Positions 7,736-12,395 of a stretch of DNA of 64,000 bases are shown piece by piece. The notes under the pieces are model-generated. The model ran no database searches, was not told where the DNA came from, and worked only from the letters and a program-made list of their open reading frames with translations. Origin of the DNA: Rhodococcus triatomae BKS 15-14 (GTDB taxonomy: Bacteria > Actinomycetota > Actinomycetes > Mycobacteriales > Mycobacteriaceae); contig AODO01000001.1 in NCBI GenBank assembly GCA_000341795.1, positions 186,001 through 250,000 of the forward strand. Reading direction: 5' to 3'. How positions within the stretch are numbered: the stretch's first letter is position 1; each line of letters opens with the position of its first letter. The translations under genes and the position numbers were made by a program.

Positions 7736-8383
7736 ATGGCTCGCGTCGTCGTCATCGGTGGGCACGGAAAGGTGGCCCTGCACCTCGAACGAATCCTGAG
7801 CGAACGCGGTGACGAGGTGACCGCCCTGATCCGCAATCCCGAGCACGCCGCCGATGTCGAGGCCGCCGGAGCCGCCGCGACGGTCGCGGACGTCGAGAAC
7901 ATGACGACCGAGCAGATCGCCGACGTCCTCCGCGGACAGGACGCCGTCGTGTGGTCCGCCGGCGCGGGCGGCGGCGACCCGGCGCGCACGTACGCCGTGG
8001 ACCGGGACGCCGCAATCCGCTCGATGGACGCTGCCGCCTCGGCCGGAATCCGCCGGTACGTGATGGTGTCCTACCTCGGCGCGCGACCGGATCACGGCGT
8101 CCCGGAGGACAATTCGTTCTTCGCCTACGCCGAGGCGAAGGCCGCCGCCGACGAGCACCTGCGGGCGACGGACCTGGACTGGACCGTCCTCGGTCCCGGA
8201 GCCCTGACTCTCGATCCCGGAACGGGCCTCGTCGAGGTGTCGCCCACGCCCGACGCGAAGTCGGTCCCACGTGAGGACGTCGCCGCCGTCGCCGCCGCGG
8301 CCCTCGCCGATCCGACCACCGTCCGCCGCACCATCCCGTTCACCAGCGGGACGACACCCATCGTCGACGCGCTGCGCGGCTGA
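7736..8383 (+). CDS. NAD(P)-binding SDR-like protein (atypical SDR, NmrA/YwnB type)
   Basis: A 215-aa Rossmann-fold protein: the N-terminal strand and turn VVVIGGHGKVALHL (residues 4-17) is a dinucleotide-binding motif with the atypical GGxGxV pattern. VWSAGAGGGDP and a YAEAKAAADEHL segment (the usual SDR Tyr and Lys positions, here Y-A-E-A-K) follow. Such proteins sense or use NAD(P)H; no specific substrate can be named. ATG 7736 follows AAGGAA 6 nt upstream. It stands alone between the hairpin at 7636-7681 and a convergent oxygenase gene. Confidence 0.75.
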   Translation: MARVVVIGGHGKVALHLERILSERGDEVTALIRNPEHAADVEAAGAAATVADVENMTTEQIADVLRGQDAVVWSAGAGGGDPARTYAVDRDAAIRSMDAAASAGIRRYVMVSYLGARPDHGVPEDNSFFAYAEAKAAADEHLRATDLDWTVLGPGALTLDPGTGLVEVSPTPDAKSVPREDVAAVAAAALADPTTVRRTIPFTSGTTPIVDALRG

Positions 8384-8476
8384 GGACGACGTTCACGGTC
8401 GTGATGTTGCTCGCCGAAGGGATGGCATCAGGCAGAGCGACAAAGATCCGGGGAAGCCGCACGCGCCGCGCTCGAG

Positions 8477-9343
8477 TCAGAACAGGGGCGTGTCCGTGGC
8501 GAGTCGCTTCTGCACATCACGCAAGCTGCGGGTGAAGGGCAATTCGCGCACCCGGCGCGGGGCGATGCGGAGGACCCGCGCCACCCGTCGGTTGAACCGC
8601 GCGAACTTCACTTCCTCGGTATCCGACCATTCCAGCTGCATGAGCTCGCGGAAACGCGGTTCGAGATTTCCGGTGACCAGCCGCACCCGCCAGCGCATCA
8701 GCCACGGTGGCACCGAGCGATCCAGATACTCCAGGCGCACGACCCGCATGAGGTAATCACGCGTCGCGTCGTCCACCTCGAGCGCAGCCAGTGATGCGTT
8801 CCAGTAGTCGTCGAACTCCGCCCGGGTCGCGGGCCACGCGTCGCGCGGGAGTTGCAAGGTGGTTCCGAACACCATTCCCTGGCGGTAGAACTGCTCGGCG
8901 AACGCTTCCGTCAGGGGCCCGTGTACACGCTCGTAGGCCTGCTCCGCCCCCTTGTACAGGCAGGCGGCGACCCACAGCTGCAGCGCCGGATCGAACGCGT
9001 TGTACGCCACGTCCGCGCCTTCCGGGGAGCGCACCTGCGCGTGCGACCGGTTGGTCGCCCGACGGTAGGCCGCCCGTTCCTCAGCTCCGCCGAGGATCGC
9101 CACCGCGAGGAAGCCGAGCGTCGTACGGCGCCGGCGAGCGGGATTGAGAAACAGGTTGCCTTCGTCGACCTTGCTGTCCTTGACGCCGTAACCGACCGGC
9201 CGTGCGGAGAGTTGCATGATCACGTTCGAGGTGCCGGCCAGGAGCTGGAACCAATTGGCCGATTCCCGGAGTGCGGTCGTCTCGAGCGCATCGAGGGCGC
9301 GGCGCTCGGCTCCGGTCTGTCCGGCGGCGGTTTCGGATGCCAT
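8477..9343 (-). CDS. Oxygenase MpaB family protein (DUF2236)
   Basis: A 288-aa member of the MpaB/latex-clearing-protein-like oxygenase family (DUF2236), helical proteins that bind a b-type haem in characterised relatives. Family features seen are the RxxxT segment at ARRRRTTLGFL, the NRSHAQV segment carrying the conserved His, AYNAFDPALQLWVAACLY, and RLEYLDRSVPPWLMRW. ATG 9343 is preferred over the 24-codon-longer frame start because TACCGT lies exactly 6 nt before it, giving a leaderless transcript. Its substrate is unknown. Confidence 0.75.
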   Translation of the reverse strand: MASETAAGQTGAERRALDALETTALRESANWFQLLAGTSNVIMQLSARPVGYGVKDSKVDEGNLFLNPARRRRTTLGFLAVAILGGAEERAAYRRATNRSHAQVRSPEGADVAYNAFDPALQLWVAACLYKGAEQAYERVHGPLTEAFAEQFYRQGMVFGTTLQLPRDAWPATRAEFDDYWNASLAALEVDDATRDYLMRVVRLEYLDRSVPPWLMRWRVRLVTGNLEPRFRELMQLEWSDTEEVKFARFNRRVARVLRIAPRRVRELPFTRSLRDVQKRLATDTPLF

Positions 9344-9349
9344 GAGCGA

Positions 9350-9355
9350 ACGGTA
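9350..9355 (-). promoter_or_regulatory. Leaderless -10 element of the MpaB-family gene
   Basis: On the minus strand TACCGT precedes ATG 9343 by 6 nt and no Shine-Dalgarno is present, so transcription probably begins at or next to the A of the ATG. Confidence 0.5.
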
Positions 9356-9411
9356 ACACCCCGCGTGAATTGCCGTTAACTTATTCTGAACTCGATCGTC
9401 CGCTCGACGAG

Positions 9412-9690
9412 TCATTCGATGCGCTCGAGCAGACGAACGGTTACGGATTCACCCGCCTGTTTGCCGATGACCTCGCGGACGGCGGCCTTGACGGGCAGTT
9501 TGTGGGTGCCGTCGCCGAGCGCCATGAAGGAACTCTCGAAGGGGTGCCCATCGATCGTGCCGCGGACCTTCACGAGCCCGCGGGTGCCGAAGAATGCGGC
9601 GGATTCGGGCCAGACGAGATACGTCCATCCGCCCTTGGCGGGGCTCTTGAGCAGCGTTGCGACGAACTCGCGATCCAATGCGGTTTCCAT
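9412..9690 (-). CDS. DUF1905 domain protein
   Basis: A 92-aa protein made up of the small DUF1905 beta-barrel domain. [19 protein letters not shown] and [35 protein letters not shown] carry its typical pattern. ATG 9690 is favoured over an upstream in-frame start because a GGAGGAGG Shine-Dalgarno lies just upstream. Function is unknown; related proteins often occur beside or fused to YdeI/OmpD-associated domains. It is divergent from the XRE-cupin regulator, with a symmetrical repeat between them. Confidence 0.75.
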
Positions 9691-9723
9691 GACGCGCCTC
9701 CTCCGGAAAGTGTGCCCCACGTA

Positions 9724-9767
9724 GGTGGACCCGACACGCACCGCGAACTCATCGCGCCGGGTCCACC
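9724..9767. promoter_or_regulatory. 10-bp inverted repeat between divergent DUF1905 and XRE-cupin genes
   Basis: GGTGGACCCG (9724-9733) and CGGGTCCACC (9758-9767) are exact inverted copies 24 bp apart. A further GGTGGA lies at 9793-9798. The position between two divergent starts and next to a regulator gene suggests an operator, probably for the regulator itself. Confidence 0.4.
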
Positions 9768-9775
9768 ACGGGGAA

Positions 9776-9796
9776 ACCCACCGCTATTGTGGGTGG
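9776..9796 (+). promoter_or_regulatory. Leaderless -10 element with flanking inverted repeat, XRE-cupin gene
   Basis: TATTGT (9785-9790) lies 6 nt before ATG 9797, and there is no Shine-Dalgarno. ACCCAC (9776-9781) and GTGGGT (9789-9794) form an inverted repeat around it, suggesting autoregulation. Confidence 0.45.
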
Positions 9797-10444
9797 ATGT
9801 CCAGCCCGAACCGCCCCGTGCATCACGACACCGCGCCGCGTGAGGTCCCCGCGGACTCACCGACCGGTGTCGACCTCGAACGGGTCATCGCCGCGCAGGT
9901 GCGCAAGCTGCGCCTCGCCAGCGGACTCTCGGTGGGCGACATGGCCGCGAAGATCGGCATCTCCAAGGCGATGCTGTCGAAGATCGAGAACGCGCAGACC
10001 TCCTGCAGCCTCTCGACGCTGGCACGGCTCGCGGCAGGACTCGACGTCCCGGTGACGTCGCTGTTCCGCGGGGCCGACTCGGCCCGGGACGCGGTGTTCA
10101 CCTCGGCCGGGCAGGGCGCCGAGATCGTCGGCCGCGGCACCCGGGTCGGTCACCACTACGAGATGCTCGGCGCGCTGCGCGGCCAGCACAAGCGTCTCGA
10201 ACCGGTACTGGTGACACTGACCAACGCCAGCGAGGTGTTCCCCCTCTTCCAGCACCCCGGGACCGAACTGCTCTACATGCTCGAGGGCGAGATGGTCTAC
10301 GGGCACGGCGAGAGCGAGTACCACCTGCGTCCCGGGGACGCCCTGCTGCTCGACGGGGAGGGCCTGCACGGTCCGAACAAGTTGGTGGAGTTACCGATTC
10401 GCTTCCTCGCCGTCACCGCCTATCCCGACAACCATCAGGGCTGA
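9797..10444 (+). CDS. XRE-family transcriptional regulator with C-terminal cupin domain
   Basis: A 215-aa regulator. The helix-turn-helix spans about residues 30-85, with recognition region GISKAMLSKIENAQTSCSL, and a cupin fold follows (EVFPLFQHPGTELLYMLEGEM, HLRPGDALLLDGEGLHGP). Such short XRE-cupin proteins sense small metabolites. ATG 9797 is chosen because a -10-like TATTGT lies 6 nt upstream. The last 30 nt of this gene are repeated exactly 1291 bp downstream, next to the following gene, so its 3' end looks like an insertion point. Its targets are not evident; the divergent DUF1905 gene is the nearest candidate. Confidence 0.85.
   Translation: MSSPNRPVHHDTAPREVPADSPTGVDLERVIAAQVRKLRLASGLSVGDMAAKIGISKAMLSKIENAQTSCSLSTLARLAAGLDVPVTSLFRGADSARDAVFTSAGQGAEIVGRGTRVGHHYEMLGALRGQHKRLEPVLVTLTNASEVFPLFQHPGTELLYMLEGEMVYGHGESEYHLRPGDALLLDGEGLHGPNKLVELPIRFLAVTAYPDNHQG
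10415..10444. repeat. 30-bp direct repeat, left copy (3' end of XRE-cupin gene)
   Basis: This copy encodes the last nine residues and stop of the XRE-cupin gene. It is identical over 30 nt to 11706-11735; the sequences diverge immediately on both sides. Confidence 0.85.
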
Positions 10445-10514
10445 ACCACCGGCACTGCCCATCACCTGCATGGCCGGTATTCCGCGGGCGAACGACAAAC
10501 CCGAGACGTCGGTG

Positions 10515-10520
10515 TACTGT
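10515..10520 (+). promoter_or_regulatory. Candidate -10 element of the repeat-bracketed gene
   Basis: TACTGT lies 42 nt before ATG 10563. No convincing -35 is seen, only ACGACA at 10492 with 17-bp spacing. The start itself has a GGGAG ribosome site at about 10550. Confidence 0.3.
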
Positions 10521-10562
10521 CGCTCTCTTCGTCTTCGGACGGAGTCAGCGGGAGCGTAATCC

Positions 10563-11675
10563 ATGTCGGAACACATGCAGAAGCAACAGTCGGCGCGCCA
10601 CCAACGCGCGGCGGTCGGCCAACAGTCCACCCAGGACACAGCGACGACCGCGTGGGTTCGGATGCTGGTGACGATGGCCGATGGGCCTCGGGAGCCCGTT
10701 CACGGTGTGGTCGTTCCGTACCGGAACTCCGACGAACCGTTCCGCTACTACACGGCCACCTACGGCGAGGAACCCGTGTTCCTGCCGTTTCGCCGTGCGG
10801 GTGTGCGGTTGTACCGATGGGGGCGCCGATCGCGGATCGAGTCACTCGACGGGCAGGCGTTGTTCGTCAGCGACGGCGCCACCGCCTGGGACTTCACCTC
10901 CGACTCCGCTCGGCCGCGCTGCACCGAGCTGCGACAGCTGCATTCGCCGGGAGCCGGCCGGTATCTGGTGATCACCCCTCGTGTCGAGCACTGGGTCGGT
11001 CACCATCATGCGCGTCCGGCGGGTCCGGTGACCGACGTGGAGTTCCTCGGTCGCCGCTGTTGGTCGGTGGATCTCGCTGCACGCGAGAGCCAAAACCTGC
11101 CCAAGCCGTCGCTGCGCCTGGTGGTGGACGCGGAGACCGGGGCGGTGGTGGCACAGCACTCCGGTGACGGTGTCGACGGCGCGGTGTTCACGGATCTCGT
11201 GGTGGGAACGCCGGTCGATCCAGCCCTGTTCACCTGGGACGGTCCGGTCGTCACCGACGCGGAGTCCCGGGAACGCGCGGGTCGCGGCGGCCCACCCACC
11301 ACGCCGCGAGAGGAGGCGCTGCAGTGGTTCCGCGACGAGGTCGCCGCCGGACCGATCCGGGTACCGGTGCTGACCGACTTCACCCCCAATTACGTCGACC
11401 TGACCGACGCACCGTCCGGTGCGTTCTCGGCGTTACTCGGCCACGGTGACAAAACCGGCTGGCTGGTCCGGCGTCGCCGATCGGACGAGCCGTGGGCGGT
11501 GAAGACCCACGGCCACCAGATCGCCTGGTCCACCGATGATTTCGACTGGGCATGCCAGATCAACCGGGGAACTCTCGACGAAGCCGGCATAGTGGCACTG
11601 CAGCGCCAGCTGCACCCTGCCCAGTCGGCTGTGGGCTGGCCCGAGGTCGTGTTCGGCGGTTCGGACGGACCCTGA
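10563..11675 (+). CDS. Hypothetical protein inside a 30-bp direct repeat bracket
   Basis: A 370-aa protein of unknown function. It has no signal peptide or clear membrane segment. The composition is soluble and beta-rich, with segments such as YRNSDEPFRYYTATYGEE, GAGRYLVITPRVEHWVGHH, LRLVVDAETGAVVAQ and TGWLVRRRRSDEPWAVKTHGHQ. The middle (substitution-like VDAETG, DPALFTW) resembles the general look of LolA/RseB-type beta sheets, but I cannot assign a family. The gene has its own ribosome site and probable promoter, and no obvious partner. Exact 30-bp repeats lie 119 nt before its ATG and 31 nt after its stop, so it may be a relatively recent insertion; base composition is not obviously different from neighbours. 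Confidence 0.7.
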   Translation: MSEHMQKQQSARHQRAAVGQQSTQDTATTAWVRMLVTMADGPREPVHGVVVPYRNSDEPFRYYTATYGEEPVFLPFRRAGVRLYRWGRRSRIESLDGQALFVSDGATAWDFTSDSARPRCTELRQLHSPGAGRYLVITPRVEHWVGHHHARPAGPVTDVEFLGRRCWSVDLAARESQNLPKPSLRLVVDAETGAVVAQHSGDGVDGAVFTDLVVGTPVDPALFTWDGPVVTDAESRERAGRGGPPTTPREEALQWFRDEVAAGPIRVPVLTDFTPNYVDLTDAPSGAFSALLGHGDKTGWLVRRRRSDEPWAVKTHGHQIAWSTDDFDWACQINRGTLDEAGIVALQRQLHPAQSAVGWPEVVFGGSDGP

Positions 11676-11705
11676 GCTGTACATGGCGGGCCGAGGGGCC
11701 TGCGA

Positions 11706-11735
11706 ACCGCCTATCCCGACAACCATCAGGGCTGA
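11706..11735. repeat. 30-bp direct repeat, right copy
   Basis: An exact copy of 10415-10444, including the TGA, although no reading frame runs into it here. It ends 3 bp before the stop of the convergent gene at 11739, so removing 10445-11735 would leave the two neighbours convergent with almost abutting stops. Confidence 0.85.
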
Positions 11736-11738
11736 CCC

Positions 11739-12245
11739 TCAGACGAGAACGCGGCAGTAGACGTTCTCTCCGCGATCCACGGCGCCCGCAGACAGTTCGG
11801 CGAACGCCGCGAGAAGGGGCACCGACTCCTCAGAGGGTTCGCCGTCCTCGTCGATCGCCCAGACACGCGCGGCGGCGGCGACACCGTCGGCGTCGAGCTC
11901 CGCGAGCACGTCGCGCAACTCGTCGGTGACGGTGACCACCAACGAGTCCCCGTCGTCACTCATGGCGACGAGCGATCCTGAGCGGGTGCCCGCCGTGACC
12001 TCGTCGTACGGGCGGCCGGTGAGCGCGGCCTCGAGCCTGCCGAGCGCGACGACCGGCTCGACGCCATTCACCTGCAGGACCGGGGTACCGCTCGCGGTCA
12101 ACCGAATCCGCGGTCGGGTGAGCGGGTTCGGAGAAGCGCCGGGGGCCTCGTCGCTCGTGTCGGGCTCGAGGTCGTCGAGGTCGTCGAGCGCGGCGGCGGC
12201 GTGCTGATCCGAGGGCGCGGTGAAGTAGTCGAGGATGGCGGACAT
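11739..12245 (-). CDS. Hypothetical protein
   Basis: A 168-aa acidic protein of unknown function. After an N-terminal MSAILDYFTAPSD segment comes a run of Asp/Glu/Ala (about residues 14-40), then a beta-rich region (IRLTASGTPVLQVNGVEPVVALGRLEAALTG) and an acidic C-terminal half. ATG 12245 is preferred over the 8-codon-longer start at 12269. It runs away from the MoxR/VWA operon and converges on the repeat-bracketed gene. No family can be named with confidence. Confidence 0.6.
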   Translation of the reverse strand: MSAILDYFTAPSDQHAAAALDDLDDLEPDTSDEAPGASPNPLTRPRIRLTASGTPVLQVNGVEPVVALGRLEAALTGRPYDEVTAGTRSGSLVAMSDDGDSLVVTVTDELRDVLAELDADGVAAAARVWAIDEDGEPSEESVPLLAAFAELSAGAVDRGENVYCRVLV

Positions 12246-12395
12246 GGCGCGATGGTTGCACACACCCACGACAACCGTTCCCGGGCGGTCTCGTCGTCGC
12301 GACCGAGTGTCGGTGTTCGACGACCACGGGGACGACGGCGTCCCTGTTGGACCCGGCGCGCCGAGCTCGTGCTGGCCGAGATCGCTGCGGCGCGC

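Follow-up and report, generated by a model that had tools for sequence, protein, structure and literature searches.

What brings a single gene to rest between two copies of the end of its neighbour, with that neighbour left whole? The question is raised by a short segment of the window, by which we mean the whole stretch of 64,000 nucleotides from Rhodococcus triatomae BKS 15-14 that was analysed. An earlier note on this DNA had claimed that the last 30 nt of a regulator gene are repeated exactly after the next gene, and the sequence confirms it: the direct repeat ACCGCCTATCCCGACAACCATCAGGGCTGA is found at 10415-10444 and again at 11706-11735. The left copy spans the final nine sense codons and the stop codon of the XRE-cupin regulator gene, and the second copy ends 3 nt short of the stop codon of the neighbouring gene (the complement of 11739-11741). 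When both copies are extended, to 10447 and 11738 respectively, 32 of the 33 positions are identical, the next three bases being ACC on the left and CCC on the right. The features of the locus, together with those of two related loci discussed below, are collected in Table 1; the start of the regulator gene was set from its full-length match in G004, a genome of the same genus with DNA about 85% identical to that of the window's own genome, G000.

Table 1. Coordinates of the features discussed in the text (window positions unless another locus is named)
Feature	Position	Strand	Details
XRE-type HTH and cupin regulator gene, 215 aa, 3' end duplicated	9797..10444	+	Pfam HTH_3 5.6e-12, Cupin_2 6.4e-8
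Left copy of the target duplication	10415..10447	+	Exact over 30 nt, to 10444; one mismatch over 33 nt
Inserted segment, 1,258 bp	10448..11705	+	Absent from the G004 empty site
Conserved leader, with the hairpin-like CTTCGTC-TTCG-GACGGAG inside it	10503..10580	+	BLAST, 5 other loci; alignment of 6 sequences with the window
Cargo gene of an uncharacterised family, 370 aa	10563..11675	+	Real start possibly 3' of 10563
Right, orphan copy of the regulator 3' end	11706..11738	+	Exact over 30 nt, to 11735
Convergent neighbour gene, uncharacterised (ORF listed to 12269)	11739..12245	-	Start inferred from the G004 reading frame
Second insert, 1.3 kb, with a 155-bp duplication of a gene 3' end at either side	G000:C1:179812-181415		L145 end, L146 start
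GCCGCGAGTCACA copies	L072 (G002) 9073, 9195, 10568, 11032, 12825, 18100	both	Part of a longer similar stretch

The repeat and the empty site

A chance origin of the repeat pair is ruled out, because it is one of only two same-strand pairs of at least 24 nt, at a spacing of 200-12,000 nt, in the 307,136-base contig (which holds 31 same-strand exact repeats of at least 16 nt at that spacing), and because the longest exact repeat near the ends of 60 random position pairs, taken as a control, was 13 nt. A search for other copies of the 30-mer, which the earlier note had proposed, returned no third copy in the window's genome with up to three mismatches.

The regulator was searched for in 81 genomes, the window's own among them, and G004 is the sole one with an empty site that shows both flanks. 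Its DNA aligns to window positions 9417-10447 and then to 11706-12273, the two blocks overlapping by 33 nt exactly at the junction. If the window flanks are joined at one repeat copy, a single G004 match runs through the junction, with 1,334 of 1,572 columns identical and 10 gap columns; in G004, therefore, there is a single copy of the tail, and 3 nt separate the stop codons of the regulator and its convergent neighbour. The proposed comparison with relatives has thus yielded one empty site, with its flanks collinear through the junction, and its arrangement is exactly the one that the earlier note had foretold for excision of the segment, namely an intact regulator with the neighbour's stop 3 nt away.

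Attachment site, loss or homologous exchange

Exact direct repeats at the 3' end of a gene that stays whole, together with an empty site, would also be expected if the regulator tail were an attB site, at which a recombinase encoded elsewhere inserts and excises a small circle with a matching att core, in the manner of a cis-mobilizable or parasitic island. Indeed, an E. coli island that lacks an integrase, is flanked by direct repeats and excises is described in PMC3191183 and PMC5426353. However, when the tail was searched for as an exact codon-degenerate pattern, which a shorter or mutated core would escape, it was present in 37 of 401 genomes of the family, single in 36 of them and double only in the window's own. 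Around 30 of the other 36 tail loci, about 1.5 kb being covered at each, 34 downstream ORFs (of 40 found) gave no match to recombinase families at E ≤ 1e-5, the commonest type among them being ammonium transporters (12 of 34). Within the window, a scan of six neighbouring proteins turned up no recombinase, and the one long gene of the insert has no Pfam match, in keeping with the earlier claim that no integrase lies inside. The insert shows no terminal inverted repeats (its ends are identical at 8 of 30 positions, with a longest shared word of 5 nt), the repeat contains no dyad of more than 4 nt, and the right end (11670-11740) has no notable single-stranded DNA fold (z 0.22, from a general fold score that is a weak test for attC).

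With the tail single elsewhere, and without a recombinase, inverted repeats, a dyad over 4 nt or a notable fold in these searches, there is little here to suggest a transposon or an attachment site in use, and we regard integration at an attB site as unlikely. What stands of the earlier interpretation is that a segment was recently inserted where the regulator gene ends, which the empty site of G004 supports; the gene end as an attachment site, and the insert as a passive cassette that uses it, are not supported, given a tail that is single in 36 of 36 other genomes, no recombinase beside 30 of these tails and a core of which the genome has just the two copies. Three further candidates were set aside: an insertion sequence or MITE, for want of terminal inverted repeats; an integron cassette, only tentatively, since the absence of a notable fold at the right end is a weak test; and an old functional element such as a binding site, on account of the single tail in all 36 other genomes bearing it.

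The bases of the repeat bear on the direction of the change and on its age. Three positions of the 30-mer differ from G004 and both window copies carry the same base at each of them, so that the duplicated sequence is, on this comparison, the window lineage's own; since copies as old as the split between G000 and G004 would be expected to differ by about three bases, it was probably after that split that the duplication arose. G004 and the left copy have A directly behind the stop codon and the right copy has C, which fits a duplication of 33 bp in which one base changed later, or else one of 30 bp. A gain in the lineage of G000 would be the simplest reading, and it rests on one empty site. 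On the opposite reading, the ancestor already had the filled state, and recombination between the repeats deleted the insert from G004. PMC2884548 explains part of such variation by loss across short direct repeats, and an empty site with both flanks occurs in one genome only; but the window copies are identical over 30 nt where copies that old should have diverged, and in 45 regulator loci, some of them retrieved twice and each with about 1.5 kb of flank per side, tblastn (E ≤ 0.01) did not find the cargo. We consider such a loss very unlikely.

Two copies could also have arisen if the donor already bore the regulator tail and was joined by a single crossover or by one-sided homologous recombination, and homology-facilitated illegitimate recombination has been described, as cited in PMC2884548. 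Yet homologous recombination would have had a short tract of 30 bp to work with, the copies are without trace of diverged donor sequence and the same 45 loci show no cargo beside the regulator, which makes this route highly improbable. An assembly artefact is barely conceivable even in a draft genome of 73 contigs, for the site is interior to a 307-kb contig, both flanks are collinear with G004 and the insert occurs once in the genome.

The cargo gene, its leader and its relatives

The insert contains a single long conserved gene of 370 aa and a leader, and apart from short matches it is present once in the genome. Against four relatives the NG86 dN/dS of the gene is about 0.2-0.3 (dN 0.17-0.23, dS 0.82-1.01). 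Its protein matches no family in Pfam or NCBIfam and, at E ≤ 1, no PDB sequence; a match to MucB/RseB is weak and confined to 2 of the 15 family members of alignment A2 (best E 0.0049), and PADLOC, run on three proteins, gave no support for a function in defence. The leader, which may act as a promoter, is conserved upstream of relatives of the cargo gene in five other loci, and it can be placed at 10503-10580 in the window, 11573-11625 in L070, 5786-5850 in L088, 4058-4126 in L090 and 5882-5951 in L091. In G004 it precedes a different gene, of 444 aa, which itself lies upstream of a cargo relative and was not found in G000. To judge from these loci, the leader seems to persist while the gene behind it changes.

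Matches to the cargo occur in 13 of the 81 genomes, a count that includes the genome of the window and a few weak, partial matches, and at 17 loci of the species-genome collection, which belong only to Rhodococcus, Rhodococcoides, Hoyosella or Tsukamurella. Relatives are also carried by 13 of 72,556 plasmid records, all of them from Rhodococcus. No match was found in 50,697 phage records, and among viral contigs 14 stretches fit a pattern, none of which was confirmed as a cargo relative; a phage origin of the insert was set aside on these two results. The nearest relatives are about 75% identical in DNA and the donor is not among the sequences searched, so that a megaplasmid source, suggested by the distribution of the family, is a guess. 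In G004, the region with the cargo relative lies just beyond the final block that is collinear with G000:C10, and the matches of its 20 kb are dispersed over G000. Eight distant relatives (L099-L106, from Rhodococcus, Rhodococcoides, Hoyosella and Tsukamurella) are 32-38% identical to the cargo protein. On plasmid pLP1 of R. qingshengii (L089, 4587-7046), a 442-aa gene lies upstream of a cargo relative, which is annotated as two ORFs and is followed by an SMI1/KNR4-like gene (E 1.2e-4, below the Pfam cut-off).

Eight loci with cargo relatives were examined for flanking repeats of their own, and none has an exact repeat of more than 16 nt within 1.5 kb. Four are without any of at least 12 nt, and the longest in the rest, of 16 nt, flanks the relative in G002 (L036). 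Its 13-nt core, GCCGCGAGTCACA, which is absent from the window, has 6 copies on both strands in 20 kb, where 0.08 would be expected with one mismatch allowed. Because the core is repeated in this way, the 16-nt repeat looks like a dispersed motif and we have not counted it as a target duplication, although it may conceivably be one.

Probable illegitimate joining with a copied target

We think it probable that illegitimate recombination placed the fragment of leader and gene and, in doing so, copied 30-33 bp of the target. A fragment of this kind, from a family that is also found on Rhodococcus megaplasmids, would have entered the 3 nt that separate the regulator from its convergent neighbour, through a joining that was not site-specific. 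Two routes could have led there: (a) Ku/LigD end-joining, which would have filled in the long 5' overhangs of a double-strand break and ligated them to the fragment; or (b) a template switch of replication into the donor, with a return some 30 bp before the point of departure. The sequence itself establishes the insert, the empty site and the duplicated target; gain as the direction, the illegitimate mechanism, the plasmid source and any choice between (a) and (b) are inferences. Slippage between the repeats might later remove the insert. The window's genome has two Ku matches and three LigD-polymerase matches, all above the curated cut-offs, although the presence of these genes is no proof that they acted at the insert. 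Illegitimate integration in Rhodococcus is reported in PMC12169178, and for E. coli PMC5350276 attributes RecA-independent joining to template switching.

How often do large differences between the two genomes carry a duplicated target? In 215,289 aligned bases of G000 and G004 (150,804 + 64,485) we counted 19 gaps of at least 300 bp, and neighbouring blocks overlap on the target in two of them, by 33 bp at the window insert and by 155 bp at a second site. The other 17 have no block overlap and no exact repeat of at least 10 nt within 60 bases of either border on the longer side; this margin alone would miss the 155-bp case, which was seen by block overlap and by a repeat search at the ends. 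The second insert lies to the left of the window (which starts at C1:186001), about 15 kb from the first, and G004 has one copy and no insert at its site. It carries a gene for a PIN-domain protein (Pfam PIN_3 1.3e-8, over most of the protein) and one for an HTH protein (HTH_17 2.4e-11), a pair that we take to have a toxin-antitoxin layout, and the gene that precedes the pair presumably resembles an L,D-transpeptidase. Its 155-bp copies agree with each other against G004 at 12 bases and are mismatched at 9 of the 155 positions, so this duplication also looks specific to the lineage and older than the one in the window. Two cases of duplicated targets are suggestive and not proof. It is a rather speculative extension, and one we would not bet on, that some actinobacteria gain small gene units by duplicative insertion at gene 3' ends, with tens to more than a hundred bp duplicated and neither transposase nor integrase involved, the window insert and the PIN/HTH pair then being products of one pathway.

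Several observations stand against illegitimate joining: (i) For a staggered break that is filled in, 30-33 bp is a long duplication, and the 155 bp of the second site even more so. (ii) The two sequenced integrations in PMC12169178 produced deletions and not duplications. (iii) The att site of an integrase, too, would look like an exact repeat at the end of a gene. (iv) A target duplication is not the usual outcome here, because 17 of the 19 large indels between G000 and G004 are without one. (v) The empty site with both flanks comes from one genome, and the search for a donor led no nearer than relatives of about 75% DNA identity.

The segment has known counterparts. According to PMC2884548, 10-18% of small variable segments are flanked by repeats, most of them shorter than 30 bp, and much of the microdiversity is ascribed to illegitimate recombination. 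The window insert belongs with such small repeat-flanked segments, a kind already known in bacteria: it is absent from the G004 site, its border repeats agree at 30 of 30 or 32 of 33 positions, and it is not a known mobile or repeated element, having no Pfam or NCBIfam match and no terminal inverted repeats and occurring once in its genome. Like the segments in that account, it is a short insert that is present or absent between relatives, with short direct repeats at its borders; unlike them, its repeat falls near the top of their size range and coincides with the 3' end of a gene, and comparison with a relative allows the duplication to be placed in one lineage. With the genomic island of microcin H47 in E. 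coli, as described in PMC3191183 and PMC5426353, it shares a cargo flanked by direct repeats and without a recombinase of its own. That island differs in its size of 13 kb, its extensive imperfect repeats, its widespread att sites and its experimentally detected excision and integration, whereas the window insert is known from sequence. A third likeness is to Rhodococcus jostii RHA1, where, according to PMC12169178, a plasmid-derived fragment integrated at non-homologous chromosomal sites, the plasmid source of the window insert being a guess; those events deleted target DNA, whereas the event in the window duplicated it.

Taken together, the evidence on the window insert points to an accidental joining of DNA rather than to a new mobile element. 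The insert is a clean case, in which one gene with its leader arrived between two genes, harming neither, and the empty site was kept in a relative. Because both flanking genes remain whole, the insert is tolerated. If long target duplications were common at gene ends, they would offer a signature of RecA-independent gene acquisition that can be counted across genomes.

The surroundings of the regulator vary in other ways. Among 11 genomes searched, the convergent neighbour adjoins the regulator in G000 and G004, lies elsewhere in G014 and G043 and was not found in the other 7. On the opposite side, a block beside the regulator has been replaced: window 8373-9417 (1.0 kb), with an MPAB/Lcp oxygenase-like gene, stands where G004 has 3.5 kb (L073 11120-14577).
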